Below are positions 47,881 to 57,270 of a stretch of 64,000 nt of DNA, one piece after another (positions within the stretch are counted from its first letter, which is position 1; each line of letters opens with the position of its first letter). The stretch covers positions 62,001 through 126,000 of the forward strand of contig DAIDHQ010000022.1 in the NCBI GenBank assembly GCA_027459645.1, given 5' to 3'. The notes beneath the pieces are model-generated. The model saw only the letters and a list, made by a program, of their open reading frames with translations, was not told the DNA's origin and made no database searches. This DNA is from Vulcanimicrobiota bacterium. GTDB taxonomy: Bacteria > Vulcanimicrobiota > Vulcanimicrobiia > Vulcanimicrobiales > Vulcanimicrobiaceae. A program made the position numbers and the translations under genes.

Positions 47881-48804
47881 CTAGTCGGTTATCGAGACGC
47901 CGCTGGTCGTCTGTCCGGCGGTTACCGTGACGTTCGGACCGGTAACGTCAGCCGTGCCGTCGGCACCGGTTGCGGCTTCCGTCGCACCGGCCTGATTCGT
48001 CCAGGTATTTTTCACGACGAGCGTGTACGAGCCGGCCTGCAGCGCGTTAATCTGGAAATTGCCGTTCGTATCCGTCACGCCGGAGTTGATCGCGGTGCCG
48101 TTTTGCTCCGCAAGGACCTCCGCATTGCTCACAGCGTTGCCGGCGTTGTCCGTAACGGTCCCGGAAATCGAGCCCGACGTCGCTTGCGCGGTCGCAACCA
48201 ACACGGGCTTCATCAACCACTGCCCGCTGGAACCGGCTTGAACGATCGATTCTGCGGCGTTAAAGTCGATGAGAAATCCGTATGTGGACCCCGCCTGCGC
48301 GGTGAACGCAGTGTTCACCTTGATGCCGGCCGTGCCGGGGCCGTCTCCCGAATCGGTGCTCGTGTTGCCCCCGAATCCGACGCCGGTTGCGCTAGGAATC
48401 GAAAGCGGATACGTCGTGCCGTTGACCACGACCGAGGTGTTGTCCGGGTTCGATGTGTCGAGGACAAAGCGCAATTGGTGATAGGTGCCCGCCGGTATCG
48501 CGGCGCTACCCAAGGTGAGCGGCGTCGTTTGATAGTTCAAGAGATTAATGGGTTCCGAAGGAGAAAAGCTTGCAATCGTTTGGATGCCGCCGCTCCCTCC
48601 GACCGCCTCCACTTTCTCCAGCGCAATATTTACGGCAGTTACCGTTCCAGCCGATGTCCGAAATGGTCCGTCCATCAACGATGCGCTGACCATTGAGGTC
48701 CCTGCGCCGGGAACCGTACCGGACGTGCTGCCACCGGATCCACCGCCGCAGGCCGCAAGCAACAGTGCGCTTGCGCCGAGCGCTGCAACCAACCGTGCGT
48801 TCAT
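47881..48804 (-). CDS. DUF4382/carboxypeptidase-regulatory-like lipoprotein
   Basis: 307 residues after GGAGGGGGAG. Lipobox LLLAACGGG. The first domain (MVSASLMDGPFRTSAGTVTA, VNIALEKVEAVGG, SEPINLLNYQT, IPAGTYHQLRFVLDTSN) is DUF4382. The second (about 205-300: SISGTVTDNAGNAVSNAEVL, NFQINALQAGSYTLVV) is a carboxypeptidase D regulatory-like beta sandwich. Surface or periplasmic, function unknown. Confidence 0.85.
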   Translation of the reverse strand: MNARLVAALGASALLLAACGGGSGGSTSGTVPGAGTSMVSASLMDGPFRTSAGTVTAVNIALEKVEAVGGSGGIQTIASFSPSEPINLLNYQTTPLTLGSAAIPAGTYHQLRFVLDTSNPDNTSVVVNGTTYPLSIPSATGVGFGGNTSTDSGDGPGTAGIKVNTAFTAQAGSTYGFLIDFNAAESIVQAGSSGQWLMKPVLVATAQATSGSISGTVTDNAGNAVSNAEVLAEQNGTAINSGVTDTNGNFQINALQAGSYTLVVKNTWTNQAGATEAATGADGTADVTGPNVTVTAGQTTSGVSITD

Positions 48805-48951: not shown

Positions 48952-50958
48952 TTAGGTTCCCTTCGCGGCGCCTGCGTAGAAGATGATCTTGAAGATCGCT
49001 TGCGGCACCGTCGTGAGGGTGTTCGGGTCGCCATATGCCGCGTAGATCTCGTATCGACGGAAGCGCGTGTGATAGGCGAGCGAAATATTCGTGCACGTCC
49101 CCATGCAGTTGCCGCCGCCGTTGGGCTGCGGAGCGTAACCCACCACTTTGCGGACGCCGATCGCGAACGACGAGTTCCGGCTTATTTGATAGGTGTAGCT
49201 GACGCTGTCGAACCACTGCACGTTGTCGGACGTGACGCCGTGCATCCATTGCGACGTGTTGTCGATTGCGAGCGACAACGCACCACGCGCCCCCAACTGT
49301 ATCGTCGAGTTCCGGTACCACGTGTCGAGGCGACCGTTGCCGTAGCGCCCCGTCGTGTAGTTGATCATCGTCGGCGTGGCCGAACTGCCGTGGTTGGGGA
49401 AGTTCCCCGGATTGCCGGTCTGCAAGCCGCTGTGATAGGTGATCTGGAATCCTCCGCTCTGCGACACGGGCATCAGCATGGAGTCGAGGCGCAGGTAATT
49501 GGATCCGGTGAAGGCTTGGAAATCCCAAGCGCTCTTCGTCAGCAGATCGAACGTTAAACTGTTGTCGCTCTGCGCGAGCCCCTGGTGCGTTCCTTGGTAA
49601 CGGTCGAGAAATGCGCCCAATCCGACGGCAGCAATCTTGCTGCTTTTCGCGCGCGGGTTCCAGATATAGGCGGAATAGATACCATAGCCGGCGACGCCGG
49701 GGTAGGAATCGAATCCGTCGTAGGGATTGAATTGCTCGCCGTAGTTTCTCACCGAGCCGAAGAGACCGAAATGCGCGTCGGACCAGCCGCCGCCGGCATC
49801 GATGAATCGCGCCTTTGACGCATCGCTGACTAGATTTCCGGTTTCGTTGCCCGCGTTGAGATAAACATCCGTGTATTTGTGATCGTACCACGAGAGGCCG
49901 ACCTCGTTTGCGATGTCGTGCACGCCGGTTCCGTTCGCGGCGACGCGTTCGTACGTTCCCTGCCAATAGCGATTCGGTGAAAGATAGGTCATTGCCGTTG
50001 CCTGATCGTTGCGCCGAAAGCCGATGGCATCGAAGCTCGCAAACGAGACGTTGCCTTGTCTTCCTTCCACGGCATACCCGTCGCGCGGCGTCGGGATGCC
50101 CGGCGTGTACAGGATGGTTCTATATCCGTTGCACGCGTTACAGTTGAAGTTTCCGAAATAATTCGCCGACTGCGTGAAGAACGGCCGGACTTCGTTGTAC
50201 GTGCGCGAGAAGACCGTAGGCGAGATCGTCTGCTGATCGAGTTCGACGTTCGAGTAGTCGGGATGGAATGTGGCGAAGAACGACGCCGTCGGCGTAATCG
50301 GGATCGAAATGTCGGCGCCGATTCGCGACGTGCTGCCGCCGTACGCCGCCGTCGTCCCAAGGCCGAGCGCATAAATCTCTGCACGGGGCGCCGGCCGCAG
50401 CGATGCCGCACCCGCGATGTGGAAGAGCAGCTTACCTGAACCCGTTTCGTCGTCGGGGTTCGTCTGAGCGTTGTAATACGACCACACGTCTTGCTCGCCC
50501 GTCGCATGGGTGTAGCGAACGAACTGCGCATGCCAGCTCCCCGAATGGACCCCGCGCATCACGTTGAACGGGATCTCCATCGTGACTTCGTAGCCCGTGC
50601 TGGTCGTCGCGCCGTGCGAAACCCAATGCGGCGCATAGGCGGTGTTTTCGGAGGACGATTCGTAGTGCGTTCCGTTGGGCGTGGCTTGGAACATGTACAT
50701 AAATCCGCCCGATCCGGTCGGCCAAAGATCGACCCAGACGGCATCGTCGCTGCCTTGGCCGACGTCGTCGCTGTGCTGCGTCGCCACGATCGGCTCGTGC
50801 TGGGTTACGTCGAAACGAACGTGGATGTCGTGTGCGTCCGCCCAGATCTTCACGGTCGTGGGTTCGGTGGCCGCGCGCTCGTGGATGACGTCGCGGGTAA
50901 GCGCGAGCGGCTGCGCGCCTGCAGCGCTTCCCGGCACCGTTACGGCTGCTGCGATCAT
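48952..50958 (-). CDS. DUF5916-like outer-membrane protein with carbohydrate-binding-type N-terminal domain
   Basis: 668 residues from ATG 50958. The N-terminal 180 residues (EPTTVKIWADAHDIHVRFDV, DDAVWVDLWPTGSGGFMYMF, VTMEIPFNVMRG, WHAQFVRYTH) are like the CBM9/DOMON-type domain of DUF5916. From about 200 on, alternating strands and PSTRYNEVRPFF-like phrases (YNEVRPFFTQSANYFG) lead to a beta barrel, with a C-terminus ending in alternating aromatic strands. Probably an outer-membrane porin or receptor. The start codon overlaps the stop of a 29-codon open frame. Confidence 0.8.
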   Translation of the reverse strand: MIAAAVTVPGSAAGAQPLALTRDVIHERAATEPTTVKIWADAHDIHVRFDVTQHEPIVATQHSDDVGQGSDDAVWVDLWPTGSGGFMYMFQATPNGTHYESSSENTAYAPHWVSHGATTSTGYEVTMEIPFNVMRGVHSGSWHAQFVRYTHATGEQDVWSYYNAQTNPDDETGSGKLLFHIAGAASLRPAPRAEIYALGLGTTAAYGGSTSRIGADISIPITPTASFFATFHPDYSNVELDQQTISPTVFSRTYNEVRPFFTQSANYFGNFNCNACNGYRTILYTPGIPTPRDGYAVEGRQGNVSFASFDAIGFRRNDQATAMTYLSPNRYWQGTYERVAANGTGVHDIANEVGLSWYDHKYTDVYLNAGNETGNLVSDASKARFIDAGGGWSDAHFGLFGSVRNYGEQFNPYDGFDSYPGVAGYGIYSAYIWNPRAKSSKIAAVGLGAFLDRYQGTHQGLAQSDNSLTFDLLTKSAWDFQAFTGSNYLRLDSMLMPVSQSGGFQITYHSGLQTGNPGNFPNHGSSATPTMINYTTGRYGNGRLDTWYRNSTIQLGARGALSLAIDNTSQWMHGVTSDNVQWFDSVSYTYQISRNSSFAIGVRKVVGYAPQPNGGGNCMGTCTNISLAYHTRFRRYEIYAAYGDPNTLTTVPQAIFKIIFYAGAAKGT

Positions 50959-51044
50959 GGCAGACGCGCTCCCTGAAGATCGTTACGGGCTTGCTGGAGC
51001 GATGGCGCCGTTAGCAGCGCGGCGAGCGGATAGAGACTATTCAT
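50955..51044 (-). CDS. Possible 29-residue leader or split signal peptide
   Basis: ATG 51044 follows GAGGAG closely and reads MNSLYPLAALLTAPSLQQAR and ends GARLP with a TGA that overlaps the DUF5916 ATG. The first 15 residues look like a signal peptide, better than the one on the main protein. It may be a coupled leader peptide, or the real N-terminus separated by a frameshift. Confidence 0.35.
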   Translation of the reverse strand: MNSLYPLAALLTAPSLQQARNDLQGARLP

Positions 51045-51128: not shown

Positions 51129-53054
51129 TTAGCTGTTCATGATCGCGCCGCTCAACGACGAACCGACGACGCGAGCCTTGTTGAGATCGACGTTACGCAG
51201 ATCGGCGTGAGCAAAGTCGCAGCCCATGAACACCGTGCCGTTGACGATTGTGCCGCGCAGATCGGCATGCTCGAAGTTGACACCCGTCACGTGAGCACCG
51301 GAAAGGTCGACGTTCCGGAGCGATGCGTATCGAAGATCAGTACCCATCAGGTGCATTCCGTGCAGATCCTGGCCGTCGAAACGTGCGCCGGCAAGCGTGC
51401 AGCCTTCACAATTCGCCAGGAAGACCTTGGCTTGGGTGGGCGAGAGTGCTTCCGGAACCAGATTGCAACCGGTGAGGGCCGATTCGTCAAATCGAGCTCC
51501 TGCGAGCTTCGCACCTGCAAGGTTACAGCCCATCAGGTTGCTATGTGCGAACGAAACGTCGCGAAGGTCGGCGCCCGAGAAGTTTGCGCCCTCGAGGTTC
51601 GCGCTATTAAAGCGGGCGCCGCGAAGATTTGCGCGCGCGAAGTTTGCCGCTGCCAGATTCGCATGTGAGAAATCCCTTCCGGCGAGGTTCGCGTTCTCGA
51701 AGTTGCAAGCCATGCAGTTTGCGCTCCGGCGGGCGTCGGCTTTCCCGGCCTGCGAAACGCGCACGATCGCAGGTTGCGATGTAATTGCGACCGCCGGAAC
51801 GTGAATCGGAACCGCGACGCGCGTTGGAACCGCGACGTGGATCTCGTGCGTCCGCGTAGGGGGCGGCGTTGGCGGCGCGGGCGTCACTTGTGCGATCCGA
51901 ACCGGTTTCGCGGTCCCGGCAGGCGGTTTCGGTGTTGCGAGGACGGCGGCGGTGCGTGCCGGGATCGGCGAGGGCGCGGAAAGGGCAAATGCGACGCGCG
52001 GCGTTGCCACCCAGGCGAGCGCGCATGCGACGATTAATCCGCCAGTGACGCCGCTCGCGATGCCGGGAGAGATTGCCGACGAGATCGCGCGGCCGGTGCG
52101 CAGCAGCCGTTCGATGCGTATCGAAATATTTTTGCGCGTGATAAAAACGCCGGGCGCGGCTAGCGGCTGATGCGGCCACGCCGTCATCTCGGCCATCTTC
52201 GTCAAACAGAACGCGTACGAACGCACCGCGCCGGTCAATTCCAGCACGTAGTCGTCGCATGCGACCTCACGCTCGATATCGAGTTGGCGGCCGATGAACC
52301 AGACGGCCGGATTGAAGAAGAACAAGGACGAGAGGAGCCGCTGCAATCCGTTCGTCCAGTCGTCGTGGCGCAGAAGGTGCGCGAGCTCGTGCAGGGTGAT
52401 TTGATCGAGCTCGTTCGAGTCGAGCGAGTCGATGAGATGCTGCGGAAGAAGGACCATCGCATCGAAGAGACCGACCGCGACGGGTACGTCGATGCCGTTC
52501 GTCGTGCAGATGCGCACGTCGCGCGCATCTTCGCTTGCGCGACGGTATTGCTCTAAGCGATCCCGCACGTCGATCGAGAGCGGCAACGCATCATGTTTGA
52601 GCTTCTCTAGACGAGCAAGTGCGACGGCGAGCCTCGCGAGCATTGCGAACGCCGCCAAGGCCCACAGCCCGAAGAGCGCCGCCGCCGCGAGAAAGGGGGC
52701 GTTGAGGTGCACCGTGGGGCGGCGGGGAATCGTTAGGCGCGGTTGCGGCTGCCGATCGGTCTGCGGAAGCGCCGTTCGTTTCGCCGGCATCTGATGTTTC
52801 GTTACGACCGAGTGTATCGGCCCTTGGACTCGCGTCGCCGGCGCGGCGAATTCGACATGCGGAATCGAGGTGGCTAAGGCGATGAGCGGTATCGCGAGCA
52901 GTGCAAGGACCCACGCCGCGTAGCGCGTAGAGGCGTTGACGCGCGGGAACGACCGCAGCGCAAGCCATGTAACTCCGGCCACGAGCGCACCTTGCCACAG
53001 GCTGTTAACGAGAATAACGATGGCCGTGCGAGCGAACAGATCGAATGCCACCAT
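51129..53054 (-). CDS. BlaR1/MecR1-type M56 peptidase fused to pentapeptide repeats
   Basis: 641 residues. Four membrane segments (FARTAIVILVNSLWQGALV, YAAWVLALLAIPLIALA, PFLAAAALFGLWALAAFAML, GIASGVTGGLIVACALAW) surround the cytoplasmic M56 metallopeptidase with HELAHLLRHDDW (about residue 220) and the third-ligand region EREVACDDYVLE. After a Pro/Thr/Val-rich periplasmic stretch, residues about 455-635 are pentapeptide repeats (A-N-L-x-x/G-A-x-F) such as FENANLAGRDFSHANLAAAN and LEGANFSGADLRDVSF. The usual penicillin-binding sensor is absent. The BlaI-type repressor gene lies one base upstream. Confidence 0.9.
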   Translation of the reverse strand: MVAFDLFARTAIVILVNSLWQGALVAGVTWLALRSFPRVNASTRYAAWVLALLAIPLIALATSIPHVEFAAPATRVQGPIHSVVTKHQMPAKRTALPQTDRQPQPRLTIPRRPTVHLNAPFLAAAALFGLWALAAFAMLARLAVALARLEKLKHDALPLSIDVRDRLEQYRRASEDARDVRICTTNGIDVPVAVGLFDAMVLLPQHLIDSLDSNELDQITLHELAHLLRHDDWTNGLQRLLSSLFFFNPAVWFIGRQLDIEREVACDDYVLELTGAVRSYAFCLTKMAEMTAWPHQPLAAPGVFITRKNISIRIERLLRTGRAISSAISPGIASGVTGGLIVACALAWVATPRVAFALSAPSPIPARTAAVLATPKPPAGTAKPVRIAQVTPAPPTPPPTRTHEIHVAVPTRVAVPIHVPAVAITSQPAIVRVSQAGKADARRSANCMACNFENANLAGRDFSHANLAAANFARANLRGARFNSANLEGANFSGADLRDVSFAHSNLMGCNLAGAKLAGARFDESALTGCNLVPEALSPTQAKVFLANCEGCTLAGARFDGQDLHGMHLMGTDLRYASLRNVDLSGAHVTGVNFEHADLRGTIVNGTVFMGCDFAHADLRNVDLNKARVVGSSLSGAIMNS

Positions 53055-53055
53055 T

Positions 53056-53436
53056 TCATCGTTCCTCGTAGCGCTCGATCAGCGAACGCAGACGCGCCAG
53101 CTCTTCGTCCGACGGTTTCTGCGATTCGATGAGGCGCAGCGCGAGCTCGCCGTTGCTGTTACCGAAAAATTTCTCGACCACGTTCTTGACCGCGCTCTGT
53201 GCTGCGGTTTCTCGCGCGATGAGCGGGCGGTAGATAAAGGCGCGCCCCGCTTCTTCGTGCGCGACGTGACCTTTTTGTTCCAGAATGCGCAGCGTGGTCA
53301 GCACGCTGTTGTAGGCTACGGGCGGCGGCGGAAGGGCTTCGGTCACTTCCGCGACGCTCGCGCGTTCGCGCTGCCAGAGCACTTCCATGATGCGCAACTC
53401 GGCTTCCGTAAGGGTGGGGGATTTTCGGCGCGGCAT
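53056..53436 (-). CDS. BlaI/MecI/CopY-family repressor
   Basis: 126 residues. Winged-helix start LTEAELRIMEVLWQRERASV and AYNSVLTTLRILEQKGHVAH, then EEAGRAFIYRPLIARE and a C-terminal dimerisation helix. In this family the partner M56 protease cleaves the repressor; a cleavage site such as the MecI Asn-Phe is not evident at the expected position, though FFGNSNGELA is a candidate loop. A promoter with an overlapping palindrome lies upstream (53472-53514). Confidence 0.93.
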   Translation of the reverse strand: MPRRKSPTLTEAELRIMEVLWQRERASVAEVTEALPPPPVAYNSVLTTLRILEQKGHVAHEEAGRAFIYRPLIARETAAQSAVKNVVEKFFGNSNGELALRLIESQKPSDEELARLRSLIERYEER

Positions 53437-53471
53437 CGGCGCGGTCTCCTATCTCCTAAGAATTTAAGAGT

Positions 53472-53514
53472 AAGGTAGCGCATCTTGGAATTGGTGTCAA
53501 CTAATATTTTAGTT
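53472..53514 (-). promoter_or_regulatory. Promoter and candidate operator of the blaI-M56 operon
   Basis: On the minus strand, TTGACA (53500-53495), a 17-base spacer and TACCTT (53477-53472) fit -35/-10 boxes. The inverted repeat AACTAA-TATT-TTAGTT (53499-53514) touches the -35 and is a candidate repressor site; it also contains the stop codon of the upstream gene at 53503-53501. An AGGAGA site precedes the ATG at 53436. Confidence 0.6.
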
Positions 53515-54952: not shown

Positions 54953-55061
54953 TATATGCTTTTTGTCACAGGAATGGTGATAGTCCATTTGAACTAGTCT
55001 CGAACCCTCTTTGGAGCGAGGGTGTATTTTTTTAGCTACTTCGTGGAGGAAATATCTAGAG

Positions 55062-56069
55062 ATGTCATGGTTTTCGCGTCGCGGCATAGCATTTACCGCC
55101 GCGCTCGGCCTTGCCGCATCCGTTCTCGCCGCTTGCGGCGGCGGCGGCTCTACCCTGCCCGGGGCACCGGCGCAGCATTCGGTTCCGAATTTGCATAAGG
55201 TTACGATCGTCACCCGAGCCAGTATCCCAAGCGTGATGGCGAAACTGCTGCATCACGGCGCGTTTTATTCGCCGCGCAAGGGCGCGCACATCAAGCTGCC
55301 GAGCGGCTTTAAAGCGATGACCGTGAACGCCGGAAACAACCTCGTCAATAACGGCGGCCCGGTTCAGACCGGCGCGACGGAATACAATATCCTGGTCAAC
55401 TGTAACGATGAATCGTGCTGGGGCGGCATGATCGGTCAATTCGAAAACGACCTCTTTGCCAGCACGATGATGAATACGGACATCCTTCCGCAATACGGCG
55501 CCGGCGGCACCTATAGCAACGGCGGCGATTACCCGACGCAGTACCAAATCTCGGGGCAGCTGCAGGATCAGGACATCTTCAACATCCTCTACAGCGTCAT
55601 TACCGCGAACAACCTTCCGACCGGATACGGCTCGGAATTCCACGTGTTCCTGGGCCAAGGTGTCGAGGAGTGCAGTCAATCCGCCGGCGGATGCTATTCG
55701 CCGAGCAACACGAGCACGTGGACGTTCTGCGCGTATCACGGAAGCAACGACTGGAGCGATATCGGCCACGTGCTCTACTCCGTCGAACCGTACCAGGACG
55801 TTCAAGGATGTCAAGTGAGCAATCTTCCGTCGCCCAACGGCTCCTTGCAAGATTCGACCGCCTCGACGCTCTCGCACGAGACGTTCGAAACGATCACCGA
55901 TCCGGACATCGCCGCAAATAACCCGGCTTGGTACAACCAGGCAAAGGGTGAGATCGGCGACCTGTGCGCCCCCGCCGCCGGCGTACCCTCGTCGAACGTG
56001 CAGCTGGGCGCGGACACGTGGGAAATTCAGATGGAGTACAACAACTCGATTAGCGATTGTTCGTACTGA
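55062..56069 (+). CDS. EXORDIUM/phosphate-induced-protein-like lipoprotein, copy 1
   Basis: 335 residues from ATG 55062. Lipobox SVLAACGGGG. The domain includes TEYNILVNCNDESCWGGMIG, DIFNILYSVITANNLPTGYG, EFHVFLGQGVEECSQSAGGC and FCAYHGSNDWSDIGHVLYSV. Near the end LSHETFETITDP and AWYNQAKGEIGDLC resemble the HExxExxTNP and AWY...EIaDLC boxes of the plant EXORDIUM family. The HE pair suggests a zinc site, but the second His of HExxH is replaced by Glu. Surface protein of unknown role. Confidence 0.78.
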   Translation: MSWFSRRGIAFTAALGLAASVLAACGGGGSTLPGAPAQHSVPNLHKVTIVTRASIPSVMAKLLHHGAFYSPRKGAHIKLPSGFKAMTVNAGNNLVNNGGPVQTGATEYNILVNCNDESCWGGMIGQFENDLFASTMMNTDILPQYGAGGTYSNGGDYPTQYQISGQLQDQDIFNILYSVITANNLPTGYGSEFHVFLGQGVEECSQSAGGCYSPSNTSTWTFCAYHGSNDWSDIGHVLYSVEPYQDVQGCQVSNLPSPNGSLQDSTASTLSHETFETITDPDIAANNPAWYNQAKGEIGDLCAPAAGVPSSNVQLGADTWEIQMEYNNSISDCSY

Positions 56070-56253: not shown

Positions 56254-57270
56254 ATGCTATCGACGATTCGTCGCAGCGTCGGGTGGGGCGTGGCGATTCT
56301 GTTCTTAGGTTCGGTCCTTTCGGCGTGCGGCGGTGGTGGAACATCGATGCAGACGACGCCGTCGAAACCGAGCGGCAGCGTGCCGTCGTACATCCACAAG
56401 ACGACGGTGGTCAGCCGCGCCGACATCTCTCGGGTGATGGGAAAGCTGCTCCGGGCAGGCGCCTATTTTTCGCCGCGCAAGGGCGTTCACATCAAACACA
56501 TTCAGGGCCTCAAGCCGATGACCTCGAGCGCGGGCTACGATCTATCGTACTACGGCGGCCCGGTTATGACCGGAGGCAACGAATACAACATCCTCGTAAA
56601 TTGTAACGACGAGTCGTGCTGGGGCGGTTTGATCAATTCGTTCGAAAATAGTTTGTACGACAGCGCCATGATGAACAGCGACATCCTACCGCAGTACAAC
56701 GCAGCCGGCACGTATTCTGCCGCGGGCGATTATCCGGTTTCGTATCAGATCAGCGGCACACTACAGGACCAAGACATCTTCAACATACTCTATAACGTCA
56801 TCACCGCCAACAATCTGCCGACGGGATACGGATCCGAATTTCATGTGTTTCTCGCGCAGGGCGTCGACGAGTGCAGCAACGCCGCGGGCGGCTGCTATTC
56901 GCCCGACAACCCGTCGCAATGGACCTATTGCGCGTATCACGGCAGCAACGACTGGAGTGACATCGGGCACGTGCTGTACTCCGTCGAGCCGTATCAAGGC
57001 GTGAACGGCTGCGAAGTGAGCAACACCAACTCACCTAACGGCGTCGTCGCCGATTCAACTGCGTCGACGCTCTCGCACGAAACGTTCGAGACGATTACCG
57101 ACCCCGACGTCGCTGTCAACAACATCGCCTGGTACAACTCTTCCTTGGGCGAGATCGGCGACGAATGCGCGCCGGCCGCGGGCGTGCCTACGGGTAACGT
57201 GAACCTGAGCGGCGCCACCTGGGAGATTCAGATGGAGTACAACAACTCGATTAGCGATTGTTCCTACTAG
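56254..57270 (+). CDS. EXORDIUM/phosphate-induced-protein-like lipoprotein, copy 2
   Basis: 338 residues, ATG 56254 after GGAGGAATAAT. Lipobox SVLSACGGGG. Colinear with copy 1 along its whole length, with shared blocks EYNILVNCNDESCWGGLI, DQDIFNILYNVITANNLPT, STASTLSHETFETITDPD and TWEIQMEYNNSISDCSY. The linker and the first 60 residues diverge most. Tandem duplication; each copy has its own ribosome site and terminator and so is independently expressed. Confidence 0.8.
   Translation: MLSTIRRSVGWGVAILFLGSVLSACGGGGTSMQTTPSKPSGSVPSYIHKTTVVSRADISRVMGKLLRAGAYFSPRKGVHIKHIQGLKPMTSSAGYDLSYYGGPVMTGGNEYNILVNCNDESCWGGLINSFENSLYDSAMMNSDILPQYNAAGTYSAAGDYPVSYQISGTLQDQDIFNILYNVITANNLPTGYGSEFHVFLAQGVDECSNAAGGCYSPDNPSQWTYCAYHGSNDWSDIGHVLYSVEPYQGVNGCEVSNTNSPNGVVADSTASTLSHETFETITDPDVAVNNIAWYNSSLGEIGDECAPAAGVPTGNVNLSGATWEIQMEYNNSISDCSY

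Follow-up and report, generated by a model that had tools for sequence, protein, structure and literature searches.

Known BlaI/BlaR1-type switches and the locus under study

The repressor-protease pairs BlaI/BlaR1 and MecI/MecR1 have been described in staphylococci and Bacillus (PMC3305447, PMC3356374; PDB 8exp-8ext), and work on switches of the BlaR1 type has dealt almost exclusively with the sensing of beta-lactams. Here we describe a locus of a soil bacterium in which this protease-repressor switch, known from penicillin resistance, is joined to an outside sensor built of five-residue repeats. The locus is located in a stretch of 64,000 nucleotides of a Vulcanimicrobiota genome (hereafter the window, to which the feature coordinates below refer unless another locus is named). 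With BlaI/BlaR1 and MecI/MecR1 it has in common the Pfam family of the repressor, the adjacency of the two genes and the presence of multiple operators at the promoter, and with BlaR1 and MecR1 an M56 zinc protease with an HExxH and a Glu motif, four predicted membrane helices and a C-terminal sensor predicted to be extracytoplasmic. In contrast to BlaR1 and MecR1, which carry a penicillin-binding domain, the protein bears as its sensor a pentapeptide solenoid attached by a disordered linker; the candidate operator is CTnnTAAnnnnTTAnnAG instead of the TACA/TGTA type of BlaI and MecI; and the operon contains envelope proteins and neither a beta-lactamase nor PBP2a. The chassis is a known one. 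No paper on M56-pentapeptide fusions, and no description of this input module or of this set of outputs, was found in the open-licence literature searched.

The repressor gene and its promoter

The repressor gene and the elements preceding it are arranged as follows:

53056-53436, minus strand: BlaI-family repressor, 126 aa
53453-53470, minus strand: candidate operator O2, CTCTTAAATTCTTAGGAG, just downstream of the -10 box, its centre 45 bp from that of O1
53472-53477, minus strand: -10 box TACCTT, after a 17-bp spacer
53495-53500, minus strand: -35 box TTGACA
53499-53514, minus strand: candidate operator O1, AACTAAAATATTAGTT, which takes in the first two bases of the -35 box

The product of the first gene belongs to the Penicillinase_R family (PF03965, 109.8 bits against a gathering score of 22.6; Pfam) and aligns with the structures of MecI and BlaI. 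Its stop codon (53058-53056) is separated by a single base from the ATG of the M56 gene (53054-53052), as was noted in an earlier sequence-only reading of this DNA. The pair is of the BlaI/BlaR1 type proposed in that reading; it is not a two-gene unit, being part of a conserved operon with paired operators. At the scissile bond of MecI and BlaI (Asn101-Phe102) the aligned residues are Arg-Leu, a replacement that would argue against a direct copy of the staphylococcal mechanism; the repressor may be cut at another position.

CopY and CopR belong, like the window repressor, to a BlaI-like family and likewise have multiple operators in their promoters (PMC7253601, in which the TACA/TGTA operator type of the BlaI/MecI/CopY family is also quoted), and the nearest named NCBIfam model for this repressor is that of CopY/TcrY (55.1 bits, below the cut-off of 122). 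Unlike CopY, which senses the metal itself by means of a C-terminal CxC, the window repressor has no cysteine in its sequence and is paired with a protease; the operator (TACANNTGTA) differs as well.

The promoter TTGACA-17-TACCTT and a palindrome at its -35 box had been recognized in the sequence-only reading, and both are borne out: the O1 palindrome has one match in the window and none in 100 shuffles (one mismatch allowed), and it is conserved. The second palindrome, O2, had been missed. In the 3.14-Mb genome, the O1 motif together with the -35 box (TAANNNNTTAGTTGACA) is found only at this promoter and at that of a paralogous BlaI-M56 pair (control pattern, 0), and O2 at a single place with at most one mismatch (reversed control patterns, none). 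The distance between the centres of O1 and O2 is 45 +/- 1 bp in about 54 of 59 promoter sites; as these sites were chosen by the O1 motif, the conservation of O1 follows from the choice and it is O2 that provides independent evidence. Altogether, two operators 45 bp apart appear to bracket the promoter. The half-sites of the paralogous promoter are CTACTAA, and thus the two circuits of this genome look insulated from each other. In the genome taken as Vulcanimicrobium alpinum WC8-2 (see below) an O1-like site is present, with no clear O2.

A leader ORF of 39-44 residues (RTRVRLP...F.GWGP) between O2 and the BlaI gene is conserved in one sub-clade (loci L028, L032, L058, L063, L065, L066, L068, L076, and L079).

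The M56 protease and its pentapeptide-repeat sensor

The second gene and the parts of its product, defined by Pfam, alignment, AlphaFold2 and Foldseek, are located as follows:

51129-53054, minus strand: M56 metallopeptidase with a pentapeptide-repeat (PPR) sensor, 641 aa
52377-52391, minus strand: zinc motif HELAH, residues 222-226; the third ligand is presumably a Glu of EREVACDD, residues 261-268
51720-52004, minus strand: predicted extracytoplasmic proline-rich linker, residues 351-445, 18% proline, pLDDT mostly below 50
51132-51719, minus strand: predicted pentapeptide-repeat solenoid, residues 446-641, in two halves with a helix (539-547) between them
51705-51716, minus strand: first CxxC cap, C447-C450 in NCMAC, both Cys invariant in 28 of 28 sequences
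51399-51410, minus strand: second CxxC cap, C549-C552 in NCEGC, after the LSPTQAKVFL helix, both Cys at least 90% conserved in the alignment

Pfam assigned residues 23-315 to Peptidase_M56 (116.8 bits) and detected eight stretches of pentapeptide repeats in the same protein (PF00805, 164 bits). Residues H222, E223, H226, E261, E263, D267, and D268 are invariant among 28 aligned homologues, and the zinc region aligns with that of Staphylococcus aureus BlaR1, where HEYAH and NEVEAD are the counterparts; the HExxH with a downstream Glu that is characteristic of BlaR1 and MecR1 is therefore present. Four membrane-length helices are predicted by AlphaFold2 (2-35, 41-66, 121-155, and 330-350), which corresponds to the BlaR1/MecR1 topology of four transmembrane segments with the protease loop between TM3 and TM4 and the C-terminal domain presumably outside. 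The linker is predicted to be disordered, with low confidence at 367-443.

The tandem A(D/N)Lxx repeats are predicted to form a quadrilateral helix at residues 446-635 (pLDDT mostly above 90) with one strand per 20 residues, at 446, 466, 486, 506, and 526 and then at 568, 588, 608, and 628. In Foldseek the chassis matched BlaR1 (8exp-8ext) and the solenoid HetL (E 3e-11), MfpA and Qnr, with which it would share the right-handed quadrilateral beta-helix; it differs from these in that it is fused to a membrane protease, predicted to be extracytoplasmic, capped by CxxC and made of halves joined by a helix. No penicillin-binding domain was detected in the protein by Pfam or in the model, and the score with the NCBIfam blaR1_generic model was 88.9 bits against a cut-off of 400. 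Pfam, AlphaFold2 and Foldseek thus agree with the proposal that about 180 residues of pentapeptide-repeat helix replace the beta-lactam-binding domain; the doubt raised with that proposal, that the repeats might not be predicted as a quadrilateral helix, did not materialize. It had also been stated that the input signal must differ; since the solenoid stands in place of the penicillin sensor, this is very likely.

A link with gyrase inhibitors, raised in the same reading, is not supported. The Qnr and MfpA models scored far below their cut-offs (57.3 bits against 240 and 55.4 against 360, respectively), the predicted location of the solenoid is outside the cytoplasm, and its charge (18 acidic and 15 basic residues) has no strong negative excess. 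The gyrase/quinolone connection was consequently rejected, and gyrase inhibitors are an unlikely input of this sensor.

In some sensors the cap is CxxxC and in a few a single cap is found; for this reason CxGC was dropped as a universal feature.

Distribution of the fusion

Matches were found in 67 of 98 related genomes, with M56 and PPR in one frame in at least 42 (hand count, among the matches listed). These same-frame fusions comprise 38 in the family of the window, its own genome included, and 4 that belong to a second family of its class; among the matches listed for the sister family or for other classes of these 98 genomes there was no such fusion. A scan of GTDB contigs with patterns typical of the clade of the window rendered 49 loci, and the titles of the fusions among these read Ca. 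Eremiobacterota in nearly all cases. With the overlap between the two sets removed there remain 46 distinct M56-PPR sensors, each in a single frame and nearly all labelled Ca. Eremiobacterota. The fusion was also found at L050 (titled "bacterium") and L054 ("Proteobacteria"), which may be mislabelled bins.

Most genomes in this comparison are metagenome assemblies. A closed genome of 3,508,363 bp (G009) was taken as that of V. alpinum WC8-2, a strain whose published genome size is the same (PMC9758169) and which is the first of its phylum in culture. This genome encodes BlaI (126 aa) and M56-PPR (704 aa) together, at about 1360347-1362844 of the chromosome, followed by two further PPR frames in a row, and because it is closed an assembly error is excluded for the fusion. 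A frame error joining two genes around 51850, contemplated in the sequence-only reading, was rejected, as the same fusion occurs in a single frame in the 46 distinct homologous sequences and in the closed genome. The presence of a relative of the system in the first cultured member of the phylum makes non-antibiotic inputs of BlaI/M56 systems directly testable.

The operon: a secreted companion and a predicted outer-membrane protein

Downstream of the sensor gene the window contains:

50955-51044, minus strand: companion remnant, MNSLYPLAALLTAPSLQQARNDLQGARLP followed by a stop, 29 codons, with a hydrophobic start, a C-terminal L.GARLP before the stop and an ATGA overlap with the next gene
48952-50958, minus strand: fourth operon gene, predicted outer-membrane protein of 668 aa with a CBM9-like N-terminal domain and a beta-barrel, distantly DUF5916-like

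By gene content, the conserved operon comprises BlaI, M56-PPR, a secreted CxxC-capped PPR companion and an outer-membrane protein with CBM9 and beta-barrel domains. The companion follows the sensor in 33 of the 46 distinct loci and begins with CxGC after the signal peptide; it is absent in the other 13, including the window, in some of them only through the contig end. A second, independent internal deletion of the companion was observed in L104 (7441-7730), where the 62 codons left encode the signal peptide, a single CxGC cap and the end of the protein.

In the fourth protein a CxxC (C273, C276) is invariant in a 24-member alignment. Its model has a mean pLDDT of 70, and Foldseek matched it to CBM9 (1i82, TM-score 0.64 by target length, and 4jpq) and to the barrels PapC, 4y25, LptD, and AlgE, the barrel matches being weak and unspecific (TM-scores about 0.2-0.4). 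It has in common with DUF5916/CBM9-domain outer-membrane proteins the N-terminal CBM9-like sandwich and the barrel. The window protein scored 18.9 bits with PF19313 (DUF5916), below the cut-off of 22.6, which the relative in L048 passes (27.6 bits). It differs from those proteins in its predicted placement under BlaI/M56 operators. At most of the loci that extend far enough, a homologue lies next to the system, either downstream or divergently, and at L020/L121, L030, L071, L073, and L082 it diverges from a shared operator. In WC8-2 the match to this gene is only partial and lies away from the operon.

The genome G001, of the same genus, retains the companion and has no outer-membrane gene after it, a copy being present elsewhere in the genome; the window represents the opposite loss, with the companion reduced and the outer-membrane gene kept. 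The occurrence of the companion without the outer-membrane gene in G001 indicates that the two outputs are separable.

Some loci carry extra genes, prolyl-oligopeptidase-like and for a secreted protein of 260-300 residues. In the window, a lipoprotein-like gene of 307 aa (47881-48804, start LLAACGGGSGG) lies downstream and has no relative near the other loci.

A parallel system and the match between sensor and companion

The paralogous BlaI-M56 system of the window's genome (contig C42, L097 4980-7725) has helical repeats of the LKSVGVTGDYI type in its sensor, and its secreted companion has the same helical repeat type, an arrangement that is repeated in L077 and L078. Sensor and companion thus agree in repeat type in two repeat classes that are unrelated to each other. 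No other observation hints as strongly at the solenoids as the input side, and the agreement suggests that the sensor reads the periplasmic partner of the companion or the companion itself. As the companion is absent in 13 of the 46 loci, it is no obligatory ligand everywhere.

The similarity of a sensor to its own companion did not exceed that to other companions (mean rank 16 of 33), and co-divergence was weak (partial Mantel 0.19, p 0.014). That the companion arose by recent duplication of the sensor solenoid is not supported, own-companion similarity being at chance.

It can be tentatively proposed that these loci belong to a family of switches that gauge the envelope, in which the solenoid of an M56 protein and a free solenoid of the same repeat type, pentapeptide or helical, secreted from the same operon, might read each other by homotypic stacking or compete for one partner. 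If true, this would be a modular receptor-ligand principle, one that we found described for no BlaI/BlaR1 system. The matched secreted solenoid is the mechanistic question that gives the system its interest.

Another repeat-bearing M56 sensor, with long IDSDYEK-type repeats, was observed in a Zixiibacteriota assembly (L092 1019-4627). Two tandem similar secreted proteins of 352 and 338 aa are encoded in the window (55011-56069 and 56254-57270), and a relative of these is found in L077 near the helical-repeat M56 system.

A model of the switch and its alternatives

Based on the available evidence, we read the locus, with a probability of about 0.6, as an autoregulated BlaI/BlaR1-like transmembrane proteolytic switch of the envelope, in which the solenoid reads an input other than a beta-lactam. 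In the resting state, BlaI dimers would be bound to O1 and O2 around the promoter and the operon would be off. The sensor is predicted to cross the membrane four times and to expose a zinc protease to the cytoplasm and a CxxC-capped solenoid, on a long proline-rich linker, to the periplasm. By analogy with BlaR1, the protease would be activated when the solenoid changes its partner or its cysteine caps change their state, BlaI would be inactivated and the operon expressed. This would yield the two regulators, the CBM9/beta-barrel outer-membrane protein and, except in the window, where it is lost, a secreted solenoid of the type found in the sensor, the circuit acting as an envelope homeostat. 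The solenoid may bind the companion, the outer-membrane protein or a glycan, or the input may lie in the CxxC caps, through their redox or metal state.

The last of these can be formulated as an explanation of its own, in which the protease is set by a thiophilic metal bound at the caps or by a reversible disulphide formed there, and the companion buffers the same signal. The invariant CxxC at the start of the solenoid in the 28-member alignment, the CxGC with which companions begin after the signal peptide and the invariant CxxC of the outer-membrane protein are consistent with it, as is CopY/TcrY being the nearest named model for the repressor, albeit below cut-off. On the other hand, the caps could be purely structural disulphides, they are replaced by CxxxC in some sensors and reduced to one in a few, and no redox or metal-export gene is prominent among the annotated recurrent neighbours, whose families are annotated in part. 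A redox or metal sensor is rather improbable, though of the alternatives it is the one that fares best.

It is less probable still that the system responds to carbohydrate, the solenoid sensing a glycan or a glycan-loaded protein and inducing the CBM9 barrel for uptake or export. The CBM9-like domain of the fourth protein (1i82) would fit such a role, and the barrel resembles polysaccharide porins, among others, but these barrel matches are the weak and unspecific ones given above and no glycoside hydrolase is found among the conserved operon members examined. Moreover, pentapeptide solenoids are not known to bind glycans.

A sensor of cell-wall or beta-lactam stress like the classic BlaR1, its solenoid being a passive spacer or an adaptor to another penicillin-binding protein, would have the same BlaI/M56 chassis but is very improbable, given a protein without a penicillin-binding domain and conserved operon members that are PPR and CBM9/barrel proteins, with no beta-lactamase or transpeptidase.

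In the solenoid-read envelope switch favoured here the chassis is combined with a solenoid and with secreted solenoids to match; its operators are paired, and its target genes form a set that can be defined.

Putative targets in trans

The exact operator motif was found at 18 sites in 12 related genomes (control, 0). Besides BlaI promoters, operators precede a copy of the outer-membrane gene that stands alone (L109), secreted PPR genes that are likewise orphans (L122 and L126) and a gene for a secreted DUF4097-like protein (L114), the identity of the latter being our own reading of its sequence. In the genome of the window every PPR match lies inside the M56-PPR gene, and in WC8-2 every one lies inside the BlaI/M56-PPR operon. 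Operator-like sites were also observed at L117, L120, and L123 (genomes G049 and G031).
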